Shown here: in pieces, positions 3,796-33,525 of the stretch | Numbering within the stretch: position 1 is the first letter of the stretch | How the letters are laid out: each line of letters starts with the position of its first letter | From: a virus | DNA: 43,192 nucleotides | Virus record (IMG/VR): IMGVR_UViG_3300009149_000006 | Coordinates: 1 to 43,192 of that record | Strand: one strand, 5' to 3' | The notes under the pieces: generated by a model | The model's input: only the letters and a program-made list of their open reading frames with translations | Databases searched by the model: none | Told to the model about the DNA's origin: nothing | Translations under genes and position numbers: made by a program

Positions 3796-4005
3796 TGACC
3801 AACAACCTCCTTCCCACGCCGCCAACATAAAACCTACAAGTATCGTGATCCTTCTCCAGCTTAGCAATGTCGGGCTTGGCTTCGGCGTTCTTTCGCTGAG
3901 TGATACCAGTCCGTCCTCATAACCGTCAACAAAAACCTCCATATTGTCGGGATACTCAGCAAGCTTTTCGCGCAATTCCCTTACCGTTAACTCCTCTTTA
4001 CTCAT
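3652..4005 (-). CDS. Fusion reading frame created by the 80-bp repeat (117 residues)
   Basis: The first 37 or so residues (MSKEELTVRELREKL, then NMEVFVDGYEDGLVSL) look like the N-terminus of a normal small phage protein. The frame then enters the 80-bp repeat at 3897, where it is read in a different frame from the source gene (giving SERTPKPSPTLLSWR and a short hydrophobic run), and continues without stop into the 47-residue membrane protein. The original C-terminus of the upstream protein has therefore been replaced. The start at 4005 has GAGGAGG upstream. Whether the full fusion is made or the internal start at 3795 is used is unknown. Confidence 0.5.
   Translation of the reverse strand: MSKEELTVRELREKLAEYPDNMEVFVDGYEDGLVSLSERTPKPSPTLLSWRRITILVGFMLAAWEGGCWSMNEYVEAVYAGRIMIEPLAWSYVGLSAVVGVVLYLLYDAIRCNLRGE
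3818..3897. repeat. 80-bp exact direct repeat, copy 2 (ectopic)
   Basis: Identical to 2678-2757. Here it interrupts a gene whose N-terminus is at 4005 and abuts the start region of the 47-residue membrane protein. It is read in a non-native frame, which marks it as the acquired copy. Confidence 0.95.
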
Positions 4006-4229
4006 AGACTAACAACCTCCTCGGCGGCTTCTGGTTCCCAGTATTCTGGGGTCATAGAGTCCTCTTCACTAAGTCCCTCCTCGGCTCTTTCTCTATCCCA
4101 ATATTCCGGGCCGAAATACCTGTCCAAGATGTCCTCCAATAACGCTGTTACAAACTCGTGGTCTTTGCATCCACAATCCTCATCTATTAGATTCAACATA
4201 CGGGGCGTTATCTCTATTGTTATTCTCAT
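4002..4229 (-). CDS. Small acidic protein, possible ribbon-helix-helix-like
   Basis: 75 residues. The N-terminus MRITIEITPRMLNLIDED is a strand followed by helices, loosely like ribbon-helix-helix DNA-binding proteins; the C-terminal half is strongly acidic with a repeated EYW motif (GPEYWDRE, TPEYWEPE). AAGGAGG is found 9 nt upstream of the start. It overlaps both neighbours (4 nt and 50 nt). The family assignment is weak. Confidence 0.6.
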   Translation of the reverse strand: MRITIEITPRMLNLIDEDCGCKDHEFVTALLEDILDRYFGPEYWDRERAEEGLSEEDSMTPEYWEPEAAEEVVSL

Positions 4230-4482
4230 CCGGTTTCACCTCCTTCCCATAACATTCCACAAAGCCTCTAATGCGCGACAAGTTCACTAATACATCAGCT
4301 ATTTCTGACCTCAAGCAATTCCAGTCTGTCTTACCCTCTGCCCTCTGGCGCTCGTGTTCTGCCCAGAAGGACAGGCGCGCCAACTGTGATTGCGCCTCTG
4401 CAATCACCGCAAAGTCTACCACTATTCGCCCCGTGCTCTCCTTCTCTTTAGTCAGTTGTTCCAAGTCCACCTTCTTGTTCAT
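4180..4482 (-). CDS. Helical protein, faintly MazG-like
   Basis: 100 residues. The segment AQSQLARLSFWAEHERQRAEGKTD followed by EIADVLVNLSRI recalls the helix pair of MazG-type nucleotide pyrophosphohydrolases, where E-x-x-D residues bind magnesium. The full metal-binding set is not visible, so this is only a possibility. AAGGAGG lies 9 nt upstream of the start at 4482. Confidence 0.55.
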   Translation of the reverse strand: MNKKVDLEQLTKEKESTGRIVVDFAVIAEAQSQLARLSFWAEHERQRAEGKTDWNCLRSEIADVLVNLSRIRGFVECYGKEVKPDENNNRDNAPYVESNR

Positions 4483-6793: not shown

Positions 6794-6822
6794 TTGACAA
6801 GACGGATGTAATATGGTATAAT
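6794..6822 (+). promoter_or_regulatory. Main rightward (late) promoter, perfect consensus
   Basis: TTGACA at 6794-6799, a 17-nt spacer and TATAAT at 6817-6822, with TGG directly before the -10 box (extended -10). The expected start is near 6829, about 30 nt before the first small gene. Confidence 0.9.
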
Positions 6823-7000: not shown

Positions 7001-8053
7001 ATGGAGATAGGTGAGTATCGCGGAAGACGCGGTTTAATGGGCAAGGAGTTAGGGGAAGAAGGATGGCGGCGGTTGCATGAGTTAAGTCATGGGTCGCCGA
7101 CTTTAGCGAGTGAGTTTTTGGGTTACAGATCGACGAGTACAGTAAGGCGGCACTGGAAGCGGTTGGAGTTAGGTAATCGGGGAGATGGAGTGAGGCTGGA
7201 CTTTGAGCCGTTTTTGGCGGGAGAGGAGCCGGAGAGCACAGGGGACATACGGGAGATGTACTTAACGGCGACGCTCAAGGCGGACAGTGCGCCGCATTAT
7301 GAGTGGACGGTAAGCCGCGATGTAGAGTACGCGCATCTGGTATTTTTGGGCGATCTGCACTATGGTTCGCCGGAGATGGACTACCGGAGGTTTTTGGCGT
7401 TATGCGACTGGATAGCGGAGTATCCGGAGGTACGGTGGATAGGGATGGGGGACTATTGGGACTTAGTGACGATGCAGAGTCCTGGCATACATCGTCAGAG
7501 TCTCACTTATGATCAGGCCACCGACTTGATGCGTGAGGACACGGGGCCGATAATGGCGCAGTGCGTGATGTTGCATCGGGGCAATCACGATGAGCGCATC
7601 ATGCGCGGGTTACAGATAGGGCATGATCCGGTAAAGCGATGGGCAGAGGAGTGTGGTGTGCTCTATGGGGGATATAGTGGCTTCATCAACATCACGGTAA
7701 CCGACGGGCGCAAGCGCCAGACGCAGAAGTATGTGGGGTTTCAGCACCACGGGTTTGGTAGCGGAACGACCTGGGGGTATGTGTTCAATAGTATGGAGCG
7801 GTTAGCGGCGCAGAACGATTGTGACTGGGTGGCGATGGGGCATCGGCATCAGAGGGCCAGTGTGGAGACTGCGAAGTCGCGGGTAGTGGGTGATGTGGTA
7901 GAGGTTTATGGGGTGCCGTTGATCTGCACGGGGTCATTCCAGAAGCACCTAAAGGACAGTTATGCAAGCAAGAAGGGGATGCGGCCCGCTTCGTTAGGGG
8001 CAATGACAGCACATTTGTATCTTGATAGGCACTCAGTACATGGGAGGGCGTAA
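7001..8053 (+). CDS. Calcineurin-like metallophosphoesterase with N-terminal helix-turn-helix-like region
   Basis: 350 residues. All metal-binding motifs of the family are visible in order: GDLH (117-120), GDYWD (150-154), GNHDE (194-198), HHG (249-251) and GHRH (280-283). These bind two metal ions and hydrolyse phosphodiesters or phosphomonoesters; the substrate is unknown. The first 55 residues contain ASEFLGYRSTSTVRRHWKRL, which looks like a DNA-binding helix-turn-helix and suggests the enzyme works on DNA. It follows the membrane peptide by 11 nt and overlaps the next start (TAATGA region). Confidence 0.8.
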   Translation: MEIGEYRGRRGLMGKELGEEGWRRLHELSHGSPTLASEFLGYRSTSTVRRHWKRLELGNRGDGVRLDFEPFLAGEEPESTGDIREMYLTATLKADSAPHYEWTVSRDVEYAHLVFLGDLHYGSPEMDYRRFLALCDWIAEYPEVRWIGMGDYWDLVTMQSPGIHRQSLTYDQATDLMREDTGPIMAQCVMLHRGNHDERIMRGLQIGHDPVKRWAEECGVLYGGYSGFINITVTDGRKRQTQKYVGFQHHGFGSGTTWGYVFNSMERLAAQNDCDWVAMGHRHQRASVETAKSRVVGDVVEVYGVPLICTGSFQKHLKDSYASKKGMRPASLGAMTAHLYLDRHSVHGRA

Positions 8054-8310
8054 TGACGACACTCGCTTGGCTTGGCACCATAATCCTGTTTTTGGTCGGA
8101 CTGCCTCAAATCTGGCGGAATTATGCCAGGAAAAAAACCGACGATTTAAGCGTATGGTACTTTATACTCTTGCTTATCGCCTCCGTACTATTGTTAGCGG
8201 ATTCAGTTTTTGGTAGCTGGCAGCCGACAGCGGTAGCGAGTTGGCTGGTTAGCGCACTCGTGGCGATAGCCATACTCGTTCAGATAGCCTATTACAGAGG
8301 GAGGGCGTAA
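8053..8310 (+). CDS. SemiSWEET / PQ-loop membrane protein
   Basis: 85 residues with three membrane segments, the usual size of bacterial SemiSWEETs. It has the defining PQ motif in the first helix (LVGLPQIWRNYARK) followed by KKTDDLSVWYFILLL, which matches the loop and second helix of the family. SemiSWEETs form dimers that pass small sugars through the membrane. A transporter gene between a metallophosphoesterase and a nucleotide-metabolism gene of a phage is unusual. The start overlaps the stop of the upstream gene. The family call rests on the PQ motif and topology; the substrate is not shown. Confidence 0.75.
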   Translation: MTTLAWLGTIILFLVGLPQIWRNYARKKTDDLSVWYFILLLIASVLLLADSVFGSWQPTAVASWLVSALVAIAILVQIAYYRGRA

Positions 8311-8311
8311 A

Positions 8312-8845
8312 ATGAAGAAGGTGTACATTGCGGGACCGTACAGTGGTCCCAACAAGCACGAAAACGTACATCGGGCGCGGGAGGCGGCAGCGATACTTTT
8401 TGTAAGGGGCTGGGCACCATTTGTGCCTCATACGATGACGTTAGACTTTGAGAAAGATTACCCTTACATAAGAAAGGAGGTTTACCTCAAGACTGACTTA
8501 GAGTGGCTAGAGCAGTGCGATGCGGTATTTATGTTACCAGGCTGGGAAGAGAGTGCTGGGGCGAGAGGGGAATATCACCGAGCAAGGGAATCGGGGTTGC
8601 CGTGCTATAGTGCGATGGAAGATGTTCCTTATGTGGATGAAGAAAGCACATCTGATTCTGTTGTAGACCATCCGCTGCACTACACGCAGGGCACGATGGA
8701 GTGCATTGAGGCTATCGAAGGGTTGGGGCTGGCTTTTCACGAGGCACAGATTTTGAAATATATTGTCCGTTGGCGATACAAGAGTGGCGTGGAGGACTTA
8801 AAGAAGGCCAAATGGTTTTTAGAGAGACTTATCGAGCGGGCGTAA
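8312..8845 (+). CDS. DUF4406 - DUF3310 fusion protein
   Basis: 177 residues. Residues 1 to about 110 match DUF4406, related to nucleoside 2-deoxyribosyltransferases: KVYIAGPYSGPNKHENV, then RGWAPFVPHT, then WLEQCDAVFML and GARGEYHRARESGLP. Residues from about 115 match DUF3310: HPLHYTQGTMECIEAI, then LKYIVRWRYKSGVEDLKKA and a terminal helix. DUF4406 proteins are thought to act on nucleosides or nucleotides; DUF3310 is a common phage domain, also linked to nucleotide metabolism. Here both are one polypeptide joined by an acidic linker. Confidence 0.75.
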   Translation: MKKVYIAGPYSGPNKHENVHRAREAAAILFVRGWAPFVPHTMTLDFEKDYPYIRKEVYLKTDLEWLEQCDAVFMLPGWEESAGARGEYHRARESGLPCYSAMEDVPYVDEESTSDSVVDHPLHYTQGTMECIEAIEGLGLAFHEAQILKYIVRWRYKSGVEDLKKAKWFLERLIERA

Positions 8846-8872
8846 TTTAGTCAGTACGAGGAGGGTTAAAAG

Positions 8873-9148
8873 ATGGAGATAGCCCATATTAAGTGGTTCG
8901 ATGCTCAGTACACGGAGGGGCCAGACTATGTGGCCGGCCTGGACCCGGGCATCATAATCGAAAGCGCTGGCGTTCTGATCTCTTCCGACGCCGACCACGT
9001 TACGATCGTCGGGGATTGGTGGGACTCCTATCCCAGCGCCCGGTGCCGCCATATTCATCACATTCCCAATGCCAACATCCTTGAGATGCACACGAGTGAC
9101 GTTGCCGATATGAAGAAGCGGCGCATCAAGAGGGGGGGAAAGAGATGA
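8873..9148 (+). CDS. Hypothetical protein, 91 residues
   Basis: Starts MEIAHIKWFDAQYTEGP after GAGGAGGG. Beta-rich with a Cys-His cluster (CRHIHHIP) and a basic tail (KKRRIKRGGKR). The combination of ILISSDADHVTIVGDWWDS suggests a small beta barrel. No family is recognised. It overlaps the next gene by ATGA. Confidence 0.7.
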   Translation: MEIAHIKWFDAQYTEGPDYVAGLDPGIIIESAGVLISSDADHVTIVGDWWDSYPSARCRHIHHIPNANILEMHTSDVADMKKRRIKRGGKR

Positions 9149-9318
9149 GTGTGCTGAAGCTGCTGGGGGTTGATGTTGAGAGACTCAATTTGCTGATAGA
9201 GGAGTCGCGGATATTGGTGGCGCAATTGCGGGCGATAGCTCCTCAGGTGCAAAATGTTGTAGCCAAGGCCAATAGGATCGTCGACATTGCCCTGGAGGAA
9301 GACGATGAAGGGAACTGA
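9145..9318 (+). CDS. Small coiled-coil protein, 57 residues
   Basis: The start overlaps the previous stop (ATGA) and AGGGGGGGAAAG lies upstream. The sequence (VERLNLLIEESRILVAQL, then VQNVVAKANRIVDIAL) has regular hydrophobic spacing typical of a two-helix coiled coil. It overlaps the next gene by 14 nt. With the following gene it occupies the place where a small terminase often lies, but neither shows a clear signature. Confidence 0.6.
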   Translation: MSVLKLLGVDVERLNLLIEESRILVAQLRAIAPQVQNVVAKANRIVDIALEEDDEGN

Positions 9319-9529
9319 GAGTGAGGTGCCGGATGATCTAACGGCTCAGTCGGTGGGCGAGCTAAAGCGCATTCTGGGCGGTGATGTTCAGGAGGGTGAT
9401 GATCTGATAGCCAGGGTGGCACTGGCGATACTAAAGATGGCACAACGATCCAAGGGAGCGGAGTCTCCGGAGGTAGAGGAACCCGACTTGGTAGAAGAGG
9501 CCCGCGACCGCTTTACAGGGCAGTTTTAA
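9305..9529 (+). CDS. Small acidic protein directly before the large terminase
   Basis: 74 residues from ATG 9305 (GGAGGAAG upstream). The sequence is acidic (PDDLTAQSVGELKRI, VQEGDDLIARVALAI, EEPDLVEEARDRF). Its stop overlaps the terminase start (TAATG), so translation is coupled. By position it may be, or assist, the small terminase subunit, but I see no helix-turn-helix. Confidence 0.6.
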   Translation: MKGTESEVPDDLTAQSVGELKRILGGDVQEGDDLIARVALAILKMAQRSKGAESPEVEEPDLVEEARDRFTGQF

Positions 9530-17524: not shown

Positions 17525-17746
17525 ATGCGAAAAGTGTTTCGTTGGATAGCACGGGGACTAGGGCTGTTGCCTAAGTTCGCTGTTGTCGTGCAAGTAGGGC
17601 GACAGAGGTCTGGCTGGGAGCCGCTTGTGCTAAGCTGGCATAAGACGAAGACGGAAGCAATGCGCAGAGCCAAATTACTACGTAGCCAGCGGATACTTTG
17701 TGATGTGGAACCTGAGGATACAGCACGAAGGTGGGTGAAAATGTGA
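17525..17746 (+). CDS. Small basic protein, 73 residues
   Basis: Starts MRKVFRWIARGLGLLPK after GAGGAGG. Short amphipathic N-terminus, then VVVQVGRQRSGWEPLVLSW and a basic helix (TEAMRRAKLLRSQR). No family recognised. It overlaps the amidase start (GTG at 17743), so it may be coupled to lysis. Confidence 0.6.
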   Translation: MRKVFRWIARGLGLLPKFAVVVQVGRQRSGWEPLVLSWHKTKTEAMRRAKLLRSQRILCDVEPEDTARRWVKM

Positions 17747-18414
17747 AGCGAGTAACACTCCCACAGTTGAAACTCTACCTTTCGGCGGCTCCTCAGCCTC
17801 GTGATATTGATATGGTGATCTTGCACCACACGTGGCGACCTAGGGCCTCGGAGTATCTCGGCGAGTATACCTGGAGTGCTATCCGACGCTACCACATGAA
17901 GCAAAAAGGCTGGTCGGATATTGGCTATCATGTAGGTATAGGGCCAGATGGCAGTATCTGGTTACTACGGCCTATTGAGCGGTCGGGGGCACACTGCCTA
18001 GGGAAGAATAGCCATTCTGTGGGAGTGGTGATGATTGGCGACTTCGATGTGGAAAACCCGTATGACAACGGCTACGCTACTGCCATTGACGTGATAGCTG
18101 CTGTCTGCCACGCCTATGAGCTAGACGCAGATGCTGTTTACTTCCACCGTGACTTTGCCAACAAGACTTGTCCTGGAACAAAGATAAAGCGAGAGGATGT
18201 GCGCAGATTGGTCAACAGTAAACTGAAAACTGGTTCCTATTATCCAGGGGCGGTTAACATTGTTGTAGAACACAATGGGCAAGTAGTGGGATCGTGTATG
18301 GGCCAGTTGGAGCAGGGGACAGTGGTGGCCTCGGTGCGGATATTAGCTGAGCTAGTTGGGGCGGAAGTTAAGGATGAGATACCACAGAGTCGGACGGTAC
18401 GTATACTAATATAG
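17743..18414 (+). CDS. N-acetylmuramoyl-L-alanine amidase (Amidase_2 / PGRP family)
   Basis: 223 residues from GTG 17743 (AAGGTGG upstream and overlap with the previous stop; a GTG at 17731 is an alternative). The zinc ligands and catalytic residues are visible: ILHHTW near residue 30, YHVGIGPDGSIW, GVVMIGDF and HRDFANKTCPG. The enzyme cuts the bond between N-acetylmuramic acid and L-alanine. The last 55 residues (VNIVVEHNGQVVGSCMG, LAELVGAEV) look like a small stalk or wall-binding domain of the copper amine oxidase N-terminal type. It is the likely endolysin or a virion hydrolase. Confidence 0.85.
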   Translation: MKRVTLPQLKLYLSAAPQPRDIDMVILHHTWRPRASEYLGEYTWSAIRRYHMKQKGWSDIGYHVGIGPDGSIWLLRPIERSGAHCLGKNSHSVGVVMIGDFDVENPYDNGYATAIDVIAAVCHAYELDADAVYFHRDFANKTCPGTKIKREDVRRLVNSKLKTGSYYPGAVNIVVEHNGQVVGSCMGQLEQGTVVASVRILAELVGAEVKDEIPQSRTVRILI

Positions 18415-30900: not shown

Positions 30901-32459
30901 CGGATGCAGACACAACAAGAAGACTAACAGCAGGTTTTGTCCCCTATGGAAGAGCCTGGCAATCAACATTCAGTGACTGGATGCGTGCACCATCGTATTT
31001 CTTTACCTATGGTTGGACTCGTCCTGGTCAAGTAGCTAACGCTGTGATAGAGCGCCCCTGGCTTGCTTATTTACCCGCTCGTATGGCGCAGAGTGCTTAT
31101 GATACAATGTTCAACGATGAAGGCCAGATAACACTAAGAGGACGAGATAAATACCTTCGCCTTAATCCTAAGTATAGACCTGTCAACTGGGATGCTTGGC
31201 CAATAAGTATGCACAAGGAGAAGTTCCCTGATTGGTTTCGGGAACGGTTTGTCCCCAATCTAGCCATACCATATCCTGGCCTTGATGTGGTCGGAGATGT
31301 CTCATCTAGGCTGGGACTTACTTCCGAACGAGACCCCTCGCTTACCGGCGCAGCACTGCGTTCCATCCATCCCTGGCTTAGAGCTGCCGGTGAGGCTTGG
31401 CACGGGAACACAGAAAGAGCCTTTGAGATTGCCTTCCCAATAGTTACTAGGGCTAGGCGCTGGTCGAAATTGGCTAGGCCACCTACTTACCAAGAGATTT
31501 TGGATGTATACGATAAATACCATATATCACTAGCGGGCAAGTCTCCTGATCCTACAGTAACAGAAGAACTTTGGAAAATGATGCAGGCAGAAAATACTAT
31601 AAGGGAAACAACGGGTTTCTTTGTTAGTTTTCAATCCGTAGAAGGAATGCTGGACAATTTGAGTCTTGACGATAAAGAATGGTTAAACCAGGTTAGGACG
31701 GGAAAGAACAAGCCTCCATTATTGTATTCTAATCAACAGCAGACTGAAGCTGCTGAACGAGCTGTCGCCTTGGGCCATCCTCCACCTACATTAAAGGATA
31801 TGAATGATCTTTTAGGCCAGGGGATAACGACAGGTGCATGGTTAGCAACCGAGAAGAAAAGGGCAGAAGCGGCACGAGTATCGCAACTTGGATTTGACGA
31901 CTGGCGAAAAGAGAACGCCAGACGAAGACAAGTTAATGAAGATTATCTACCTATAACCGAGAATGCTCTCCGTGAACTCAATAAACGGCGAGCATCTGCT
32001 GACCCTGTAAAGTTTCCACCCTATACCCCCGAGCAGGTAATGGCCCTTGAGCATCTATCGGTCCCTACGTCACTGCCCGCAGGGACGAGAATGGCAAGAG
32101 GAGCAGTATCTAGCGACGTGGGGATGTGTGCCCGAACGATGTGGGAATCCTACTTTGGGAAGACGGGATATGGAGATGCGGAAGAGGCACCGGGTGTTTG
32201 GGCGAAGGAGGGCTTCACTACATTACCCCAGGGGACACCCATATCGGAAGGCAAGGCTGGAGACGCAATTTGGTATCCACTGGGGGAGCATGGGCATACA
32301 GGTTGGCTATTTGTGAACCCAAAGTCAAAGCAGCTAGAACTGTTGAGCAACTATGAGGGGCAGTTAGGCTTTAGTCCTCTGCAAGATATTCCTGGCACTA
32401 TAATCAGTCGTCCCCCCCCCATGAATGCTTTCGAGTATGAGTTGCAACGATTAAGGTGA
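27951..32459 (+). CDS. Giant internal/ejection protein with C-terminal NlpC/P60-like cysteine peptidase domain
   Basis: 1502 residues, the largest gene. Most of it is helical and basic, without a family I can name. The last 110 residues form an NlpC/P60-like domain: catalytic Cys in VGMCARTMWESYFG (about residue 1393), then KAGDAIWYPLGEHGHTGWL with the catalytic His (about 1449) and ISRPPP near the end. Such domains cleave peptidoglycan and would help the phage open the cell wall during DNA entry. The position after two other helical virion proteins matches the large internal virion protein of T7-like phages, where an enzyme domain is usual. A run of nine C residues lies near the 3' end (32412-32420). 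Confidence 0.7.
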   Translation: MADYWTQVRKNLEGLIARVRAGKYSLETAIKYANSLYRVKNGHLGVEDPEGDRAKEHGHYVRAFMDARAVTKGRRIVDEIRALGEKRLVPSNVANFYAEKARPSSPIFISPKEPQFIAPQQPPTPVEEKLNAGIEQVRDGKKKYATMVKEIMAVGPMILGQEKVAGLVNEAGMAAGFSPQYINEVAVPREIKLSSVWASMGIPQWIVERTIVPLYRHWRYGEELEETTIDDWRELQRDVARGKYPVESTIPSYLSSLPEDATFLQKIGAVAAGLTADVARDPWCWASVLGGFRVAIGTVANGVTNRTAGRWFKYAATHKPEVAKAATAMRDAALELLADRSFDVEAFTKGGGIEYVRAAFVAAARKGGLVKEEVAKWAAEEWMRIWQSGLKKQFRILGREIFPDWKAGNEIADIDKAIRAKQAKILTIATAKAVRRMAPTAAEQKLAQIANLPAATAYETKLADKAAEELTKMARGSDVSLSKIAETVRDFIVRTGNTPTVFNAPLGAMMGKYQRLSSVYAGNLARPLRGLTPADRDRVGELMALHPQVVRSKQFAERTGIPIGEVWEPPIADRVETALKMTGEWTGPEQVAKILDTTKALVDRLPPETKKLWIATDEMVKGFIGARQRIIDEIGIDVADKGPSYLTYRRAKPEYSRLSHVALPQAKQWFQRFSEYEHPVVVEWLRAAGHEEIPAAITDPLPLSIAYGHGMAKAMLHKDIAAFYKRYGVRFLNKQAAEVMGWGPPLQTVEAQYLDSIGKPSALSGLRSHYLPLGVPNYITSQLSSKHTVQKFAAKWGSISRQAALNTIHFPMINIPEQFFNAAVSGVPSLADPRNINTWRAAFRIAIEAMLDDTIEAGIASAPRTFGERLSLGVARGGTGLSDVIDKKLSIVLQDNVVMDNVRKFLKIQKISENDIAETLTWLKQTDVLHGGYAANLGRYEARINDIADAVLRNTIGWGIRSGGAIEDFARSAAAAAMHLSGLSDADTTRRLTAGFVPYGRAWQSTFSDWMRAPSYFFTYGWTRPGQVANAVIERPWLAYLPARMAQSAYDTMFNDEGQITLRGRDKYLRLNPKYRPVNWDAWPISMHKEKFPDWFRERFVPNLAIPYPGLDVVGDVSSRLGLTSERDPSLTGAALRSIHPWLRAAGEAWHGNTERAFEIAFPIVTRARRWSKLARPPTYQEILDVYDKYHISLAGKSPDPTVTEELWKMMQAENTIRETTGFFVSFQSVEGMLDNLSLDDKEWLNQVRTGKNKPPLLYSNQQQTEAAERAVALGHPPPTLKDMNDLLGQGITTGAWLATEKKRAEAARVSQLGFDDWRKENARRRQVNEDYLPITENALRELNKRRASADPVKFPPYTPEQVMALEHLSVPTSLPAGTRMARGAVSSDVGMCARTMWESYFGKTGYGDAEEAPGVWAKEGFTTLPQGTPISEGKAGDAIWYPLGEHGHTGWLFVNPKSKQLELLSNYEGQLGFSPLQDIPGTIISRPPPMNAFEYELQRLR

Positions 32460-32809
32460 TGACTGTGTCGAACGTAAACGGCCAAGCCCGTACCGACATC
32501 GCTGTTCTGGTGCAGCGCTTAAATGACCACGAGAAGCGAGCACGGGAAGATTGGGAGAACATAATTGAAAAGCTGGCTGAAGCTAAGGCGCAGGTCAAAG
32601 AAAATGCCGAAGAGGCCCAGCGGAATGCCCGCGAGGCCAAAATGATTGCCAGGCAAAATAGCCAAACATTAAATACAATAAAAACGGAAATGGCGGTGGC
32701 TCAAGTGAAGATGGACAATGGAAGCAAGAGGTTTGTCGCGCTTATCGCCGCCGCCGCCAGTATATTTGCGGCGGGGCTAACAGCGTTGGTTCAAATCCTC
32801 ATCCACTAA
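32459..32809 (+). CDS. XhlA-like holin/membrane anchor protein
   Basis: About 116 residues from ATG 32459 (GTG at 32456 and GTG at 32465 are alternatives). The N-terminal 80 residues are a charged coiled coil (RLNDHEKRAREDWENIIEKL) and the C-terminus has one membrane segment (FVALIAAAASIFAAGLTALV). This layout is that of XhlA-type phage lysis proteins. The start overlaps the stop of the giant ejection-protein gene. Confidence 0.6.
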   Translation: MTVSNVNGQARTDIAVLVQRLNDHEKRAREDWENIIEKLAEAKAQVKENAEEAQRNAREAKMIARQNSQTLNTIKTEMAVAQVKMDNGSKRFVALIAAAASIFAAGLTALVQILIH

Positions 32810-32853
32810 CAAAAGACAATTTTACGCATTACTTTATAGAGGAGTGTTGACTT

Positions 32854-33159
32854 ATGGACTGGGAGCAATTCCCTGAGTATGTTGCTATTGCTATAACCAC
32901 TATCGCCACTATGGGTATGGTGGGTGCTGCCACTATGCAGATAGTCAAGGAGGTCGTAAGGCTACTCAGAACAGCAATACCAGCGTTCCAGCTTGAGCTT
33001 TCTGCGGAGTTTATGACCATAACCAGCGGGTTAATCTCTGCTGGGCTAGCTGCTTACGTTATGCACCAGACAGGGACGCCGCTTGCTGTAGCAATACTAG
33101 CTTGTATAGTCGCTCTTTATTCGCCTAAGGTAACACACGACGCAGTACGACATCTATGA
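32854..33159 (+). CDS. Putative holin
   Basis: 101 residues with two to three membrane segments (VAIAITTIATMGMVGAATM, FMTITSGLISAGLAAYVM, TPLAVAILACIVALYSP). Size and place, right after the XhlA-like gene and before a secreted protein, fit a holin that lets the lytic enzyme reach the wall. Identification by topology and context. Confidence 0.6.
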   Translation: MDWEQFPEYVAIAITTIATMGMVGAATMQIVKEVVRLLRTAIPAFQLELSAEFMTITSGLISAGLAAYVMHQTGTPLAVAILACIVALYSPKVTHDAVRHL

Positions 33160-33174
33160 GAAGGGAGGTGACCT

Positions 33175-33525
33175 ATGAGAATTGCATTAGCTATTCTGCT
33201 ACTACTGACTCTCGTAGCTCTGCCCGCTGTTGCGGGTGATCTGCTAATAACAACCGAGAAGATCGAGGTCAATGGGTTAGTTGGCAGCATTGGTGTGGCT
33301 GGCGGGGCTTTCTGGCCCGTAGTTAGTATAGCAGACAGTGGTGTACAGCTTGGTCCGATGGTTGCTATTGGAGAAAGCACGGGAGTTCTTGGCGGTGGGG
33401 CTAAGATCGGAGTAACTATCGATGCTCCCATACTAGAAAACCTCAATTTCGGTTGGATAGGATATGGTTACAACTGGGTAGAGAACGATTGGGGTCTTGA
33501 GTTTGGAGTGGGAGTAACTAGGTAG
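33175..33525 (+). CDS. Small secreted protein with C-terminus changed by a 44-bp duplication
   Basis: 116 residues. A signal peptide (MRIALAILLLLTLVALPAVA) is followed by a Gly/Val-rich beta protein with amphipathic strands (GSIGVAGGAFWPVVSIAD, LGPMVAIGES, LNFGWIGYGYNW), possibly a small barrel. The end VENDWGLEFGVGVTR is produced by the first unit of a 44-bp tandem duplication; the frame without it would end GVGVAVALK. GGGAGGTG lies upstream of the start. Confidence 0.65.
   Translation: MRIALAILLLLTLVALPAVAGDLLITTEKIEVNGLVGSIGVAGGAFWPVVSIADSGVQLGPMVAIGESTGVLGGGAKIGVTIDAPILENLNFGWIGYGYNWVENDWGLEFGVGVTR

Follow-up and report, generated by a model that had tools for sequence, protein, structure and literature searches.

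A viral PQ-loop superfamily membrane protein with a replaced sugar pocket, encoded in the same operon as a metallophosphoesterase

Why would a phage encode a protein that resembles a small bacterial sugar transporter? The question is raised by an ORF at 8053-8310 of a 43,192-base virus record (the window, by which we mean the whole stretch of DNA that was analysed), in which we recognised genes for terminase, portal, head and tail/virion proteins, an amidase endolysin, a primase and a helicase. Transporters in general are uncommon in phages of such size. A preliminary description of this DNA had read the ORF as a SemiSWEET sugar transporter, unexpected in a phage and located in the late operon. 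As it stated, the product is an 85-residue, three-helix protein with a PQ motif (P18-Q19) and a KxxxD-L-S loop (K27-K-T-D-D31-L-S33), and the gene overlaps that of a metallophosphoesterase (MPE). The overlap is 1 nt: the final base of the TAA that ends the MPE gene (8051-8053) doubles as the A of the PQ-loop ATG.

The ORF consists of 85 codons with an ATG start, a GGGAGG Shine-Dalgarno lies a few nucleotides 5′ of the ATG, and the GC content matches that of the phage (0.49 vs 0.52). It is the second gene of a rightward operon that includes terminase, portal and capsid genes further along. Its assignment to a late operon was not borne out, as the operon opens with a perfect sigma-70-like site (TTGACA-17-TATAAT, 12/12, with a 17-nt spacer and the TG of an extended -10). 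Given this site, early expression driven by the host appears at least as likely as late expression. Perfect TG-extended sites of this kind occur just twice in the window, at 6794-6822 (+) and 3203-3175 (-); both, at 12/12 with a 17-nt spacer, are likely strong early promoters.

Table 1. Features of the PQ-loop locus (positions in the window)
Feature	Position	Strand	Basis
Perfect sigma-70 promoter-like site, likely promoter of the MPE/PQ-loop operon	6794..6822	+	Consensus match, no proof of function
Calcineurin-like metallophosphoesterase (MPE), 350 aa, coupled upstream neighbour	7001..8053	+	Pfam Metallophos, phrog_7339, L002/L003
GGGAGGGCGTAA, exact 12-bp direct repeat, copy 1 (PQ-loop Shine-Dalgarno and MPE stop)	8042..8053	+	Repeat search
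PQ-loop (SemiSWEET-superfamily) membrane protein, 85 aa	8053..8310	+	PF04193 47.8 bits, 4qnc/4rng profile match, shuffle control
PQ motif, residues 18-19 (P19-Q20 in L. biflexa SemiSWEET)	8104..8109	+	Gap-free alignment
K27-K-T-D-D31-L-S33, cytoplasmic loop/gate motif (K28, D32, S34 in LbSemiSWEET)	8131..8151	+	Alignment
Leu47 in place of sugar-stacking Trp48	8191..8193	+	Alignment; role PMC5972207
Ser63 in place of sugar-binding Asn64	8239..8241	+	Alignment; role PMC5972207
GGGAGGGCGTAA, copy 2 (next gene's Shine-Dalgarno and PQ-loop stop)	8299..8310	+	Repeat search
DUF4406/DUF7768 (nucleoside 2-deoxyribosyltransferase-like) fused to DUF3310, downstream neighbour	8312..8845	+	Pfam/PHROGs searches

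Several searches placed the protein in a family. It scored 47.8 bits against Pfam PQ-loop (PF04193; cut-off 22, E 1.2e-12, residues 2-57) and has the pattern of that family, a PQ in the first helix followed by a basic-acidic-Ser loop (P18 Q19, K27, D31, S33). A two-sequence profile made from it and its relative in the viral contig L002 (see below) found the solved SemiSWEETs 5UHS and 4QNC at 3.9e-5 and 4RNG at 6e-5. As a chance control, we built a profile from bacterial homologues and solved SemiSWEET (PDB) sequences only. This profile gave 31.1 bits to the window protein and 49.1 bits to the L002 protein; with 20,000 shuffled versions of the window protein, in which local composition was kept, its top score was 21.4 bits. 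The length and three hydrophobic segments fit the SemiSWEET range (about 85-100 aa). These data confirm that 8053-8310 encodes a PQ-loop superfamily protein and that the resemblance is not due to chance.

The more specific models gave a different answer. Of the two Pfam families that had been named for this ORF, PQ-loop holds and MtN3_slv does not, the latter scoring 20.7 bits against a cut-off of 23.7; NCBIfam SemiSWEET_2 gave 16.4 bits, under its cut-off of 80. In PHROGs, the unnamed family phrog_25992 matched weakly over nearly the whole protein (E 3.7e-5). When the window protein was searched as a single sequence against viral contigs, genomes, plasmids and phage records, no convincing relative emerged; relatives were reached through the neighbouring MPE and through profiles. 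Judged by its sequence, the protein belongs to the PQ-loop superfamily but not to the canonical sugar SemiSWEETs. PF04193 takes in cystinosin-type and other non-sugar carriers.

To compare individual residues, we used a gap-free alignment over the three helices with 27 bacterial homologues and the solved SemiSWEETs, in L. biflexa numbering. MAFFT alignments of few sequences opened gaps in helix 3; the gap-free register follows the larger alignments together with the PDB profile. P19, Q20, K28, D32, S34 and P59 are retained. The sugar pocket of SemiSWEETs is formed by Trp48, Asn64 and Thr13; replacing the Trp or Asn with Ala markedly lowers uptake in two SemiSWEETs, and Tyr51 and Phe17 help open the path to the pocket (PMC5972207). 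In the window protein all three pocket residues are changed (T13L, W48L and N64S, corresponding to Leu12, Leu47 and Ser63), as are the outer gate (Y51D and G52S, corresponding to Asp50-Ser51), F17 (to Gly) and M37 (to Tyr). W48, Y51, G52 and N64 were invariant in 27/27 of the top-scoring homologues found in the searched Elusimicrobiota genomes, a set skewed towards canonical members. Of another 38 bacterial homologues, most of them with lower scores, 9 lacked W48, 14 lacked N64 in the ungapped register (some of these losses, e.g., in L057 and L073-L075, look like register shifts caused by insertions) and 8 lacked both, including one (L072) with exactly Leu and Ser at 48 and 64. Thus, PQ-loop outliers like the window protein exist in bacteria too. 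The designation as a SemiSWEET sugar transporter therefore stands for the fold family, since the protein belongs to the PQ-loop superfamily and its closest solved relatives are SemiSWEETs, but not for sugar, as both SemiSWEET-specific cut-offs were missed and T13, W48, N64, Y51 and G52 are replaced.

AlphaFold2 (AF2) predicted helices at 3-26, 31-52 and 58-84 with low confidence (monomer pTM 0.43 and 0.35 in runs with one and four sequences). Foldseek searches with these low-confidence models returned no SemiSWEET, just chance matches to channels. We gave the structure results no weight in either direction.

How unusual is such a gene in a phage? Among 50,697 phage records we found no convincing PQ-loop match, and in the literature searched no description of a phage PQ-loop or SemiSWEET protein. 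One strong tblastn match, MT837855.1 ("Bacteriophage sp."), was rejected as phage evidence because on inspection the contig looks bacterial. It contains glycosyltransferase-, MFS permease-, PfkB-type kinase-, thioredoxin reductase- and GreA-like genes, is apparently mislabelled and resembles a fragment of a bacterial chromosome. An Elusimicrobia sequence (L011) fell under the PQ-loop cut-off and was left out. We did not infer an Elusimicrobiota host from the two genome matches, as PQ-loop proteins are common in that group (55/150 genomes have one over the cut-off). IMG/VR, however, yielded at least three further phage lineages with PQ-loop genes (L002, L017 and L092-L100). The expectation that the gene is out of place in a phage thus holds for the isolate collection and not for IMG/VR or PHROGs, which already has a weakly matching unnamed family; on these matches, the window gene is not unique.

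The 24,962-bp contig L002 carries the only syntenic homologue of the window gene, encoding an 84-aa PQ-loop protein, about 32% identical, directly behind the MPE in the same slot. It has Tyr at 48, keeps Asn64 and scores 44.6 bits against SemiSWEET_2. Besides the MPE, the two contigs share two other genes and nothing else detectable. At 0.7-2 kb downstream of its PQ-loop gene, L002 contains a PfkB-type sugar-kinase-like gene (8060-8947) and a cupin sugar-isomerase-like gene (9051-9428), which makes a sugar-related role more plausible in L002. The second lineage is a 314,837-bp contig (L017; IMGVR_UViG_3300044712_000810) in which 3977-4243, flanked by type II topoisomerase subunit-like and SSB-like genes (by inspection), encodes an 88-aa protein 41% identical to 4RNG, with W48 kept and Ser at 64. 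This protein passes the SemiSWEET_2 cut-off (81.8 vs 80) and also matches phrog_25992 (9.7e-6). Since it is over the SemiSWEET cut-off, viruses do carry real SemiSWEETs, and L017 is a better candidate for a viral SemiSWEET than the window gene.

The third lineage is a single phage family represented by nine contigs, each from a different metagenome sample (L092-L100), with seven distinct sequences of a PQ-loop gene around 3926-4207. The 90-aa protein (52.5 bits) is 97-99% identical among contigs, carries Ser at position 48 and lacks the Asn of position 64. Its pN/pS is 0.066, indicating strong purifying selection. As selection is maintained without W48 and N64, the PQ-loop superfamily would appear able to function in phages without the sugar pocket. 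In 7/9 of these contigs, a YfcE-like MPE lies downstream of the PQ-loop gene, adjacent in six and with one gene between in L099; L097 and L100 have the PQ-loop gene without an adjacent MPE.

Thus, MPE and PQ-loop genes are adjacent in two unrelated phage settings, with opposite gene order (window and L002 vs the L092 family). The pairing is striking because no MPE motif was found in the flanks (about 1.5-4 kb) of PQ-loop genes at 34 bacterial loci. However, MPE genes were present in 12/12 phage contigs checked, several with two or three, and the window-type and YfcE-like MPEs share little similarity (24% over 106 aa, E 0.02). Because MPEs are so common and the two types so dissimilar, the adjacency may be due to chance, and we treat the pairing as a lead.

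The window MPE scored 23.5 bits against Pfam Metallophos (cut-off 21.5) and matched phrog_7339, "DNA repair exonuclease", at E 2.8e-27. It is 79% identical to the MPE of L002 and 77% to that of the 41,253-bp contig L003. The MPEs are 77-87% identical among the three, while their other shared genes are mostly 24-58% identical (as between L003 and the window) or absent. This difference points to recent exchange of the MPE gene. The terminase, used as bait, retrieved no relatives. A scan of neighbouring genes in the window revealed no recognisable sugar gene. Elsewhere in the window, 32456-33525 contains three small ORFs with no PHROGs family match. Two of them look holin-like on inspection, one being a coiled-coil with a C-terminal membrane segment and the other having several hydrophobic segments; the third encodes a secreted protein with relatives in two other genomes (G001 and G002).

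In L003, the DUF4406/DUF3310 gene comes immediately after the MPE, and the contig contains no PQ-loop match anywhere. The window holds no exact match to GGGAGGGCGTAA beyond the two copies that flank the PQ-loop gene, and just two further sites have one mismatch. The empty site of L003 has a single near-identical junction copy, GGGAGGGCGTGA, and deleting one repeat copy together with the PQ-loop gene from the window gives an L003-like arrangement. This is consistent with gain or loss of the gene by recombination at the 12-bp repeat, and equally with reuse of one Shine-Dalgarno/stop string, each copy serving the next gene.

The model that we favour, with a probability of roughly 45%, is that the protein forms a homodimer of the PQ-loop type that facilitates passage of a small, non-canonical solute across the host inner membrane. 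It starts from what was computed for the window gene, namely its superfamily, ORF, coupling, residue changes and patchy presence in relatives, and is suggested by the PF04193 score, the SemiSWEET profile match, the kept residues, the L002 slot, selection in L092-L100 and the bacterial outliers (8/38). The protein would form a "binder-clip" dimer hinged at Pro18 and work by alternating access. The cytoplasmic-side motif (PQ, K27, D31, S33) is intact and the central pocket and outer gate appear rebuilt, so the cargo would probably be something other than the classical mono- or disaccharides. During infection, a small solute would move downhill across the host membrane. From the coupled MPE and the deoxyribosyltransferase-like neighbour, the cargo may come from nucleotide or phosphate-ester metabolism; against this link, the genes downstream in L002 include the sugar-kinase-like and sugar-isomerase-like ones instead. 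A broader version, in which pocket-replaced PQ-loop proteins of several unrelated phage lineages are co-expressed with an MPE and move, or signal through, a phosphoester- or nucleoside-derived molecule for metabolic takeover or counter-defence, is speculative and seems quite unlikely.

Other explanations share some of this evidence. The protein could be a membrane partner without transport activity, anchoring or regulating the MPE or reusing the PQ-loop fold for superinfection exclusion or host takeover. The recurrence of the MPE coupling in phages and its absence from the bacterial loci, the patchy, moron-like presence with a 12-bp repeat at both ends, and a report of a phage MPE as a counter-defence factor (PMC12287305) are consistent with this idea, which we regard as doubtful: the ubiquity of MPEs makes chance adjacency plausible, the two MPE types barely resemble each other, L003 has the MPE without a PQ-loop gene, and L097 and L100 show the reverse. 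A genuine SemiSWEET that facilitates sugar passage through a diverged pocket, and alters sugar flux or the osmotic state of the host cell during infection, is unlikely. In its favour, the nearest proteins of solved structure are sugar SemiSWEETs; Asn64 is kept in the syntenic L002 protein, which reaches 44.6 bits and is encoded close to sugar-type genes; and L017 exceeds the cut-off. Yet the Trp and Asn at which Ala mutants markedly cut uptake (PMC5972207) are replaced along with T13, Y51 and G52, both sugar-family models stay under their cut-offs, and the scanned neighbours offer no sugar gene.

A recently acquired passenger (a moron) with no selected function in the window phage would account for the L003 slot, for the repeat whose collapse restores that arrangement, and for syntenic PQ-loop copies only about 32% identical beside MPEs that are 79% identical. 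We consider it improbable, because the ORF is intact, with a good ribosome-binding site, stop-start coupling and phage-like composition, and the same superfamily occupies the same slot in L002. The holin-like alternative raised in the preliminary description, here a lysis protein (holin, antiholin or other) whose PQ motif arose by chance, is in keeping with the small size, the three hydrophobic segments and the AF2 (low confidence) and Foldseek results, which lend the PQ-loop fold no support. However, the profile evidence is far above chance, the L002 relative is also a PQ-loop protein, no holin family in Pfam or PHROGs matched the window protein, and the window has an amidase endolysin at 17731-18414 (9.4 kb from the PQ-loop gene) and holin-like ORFs (by inspection) at 32456-33159. 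With strong profile evidence and lysis genes elsewhere, this reading is weak and highly improbable.

If the window protein transports, as the facilitator model holds, it would be among the smallest phage-encoded carriers, and the natural loss of Trp and Asn beside a viral SemiSWEET that keeps Trp would make a convenient contrast for studying cargo choice by PQ-loop dimers. Compared with SemiSWEETs (L. biflexa 4QNC/5UHS; 4RNG, 4X5M, 9KAX; NF037968), it is alike in length, three helices, the helix-1 PQ, the K/D/S of the cytoplasmic loop, Pro59 and gap-free alignment, and unlike in the T13/W48/N64 pocket, the Y51/G52 outer gate, F17, M37 and scores under the cut-offs. It exceeds the curated cut-off of the PF04193 family but is a single three-helix unit and phage-borne; with phrog_25992, the E-values of both it and L017 are modest. 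L017 passes the NCBIfam cut-off and keeps W48, whereas the window protein fails it and has Leu at 48; both have Ser at 64. The L002 protein resembles it in its slot behind a 79%-identical MPE and differs in Asn64 and Tyr48. The L092-L100 proteins are of the same superfamily and similar size but stand apart as a group in sequence, and the MPE there lies downstream of the PQ-loop gene, not upstream as in the window.
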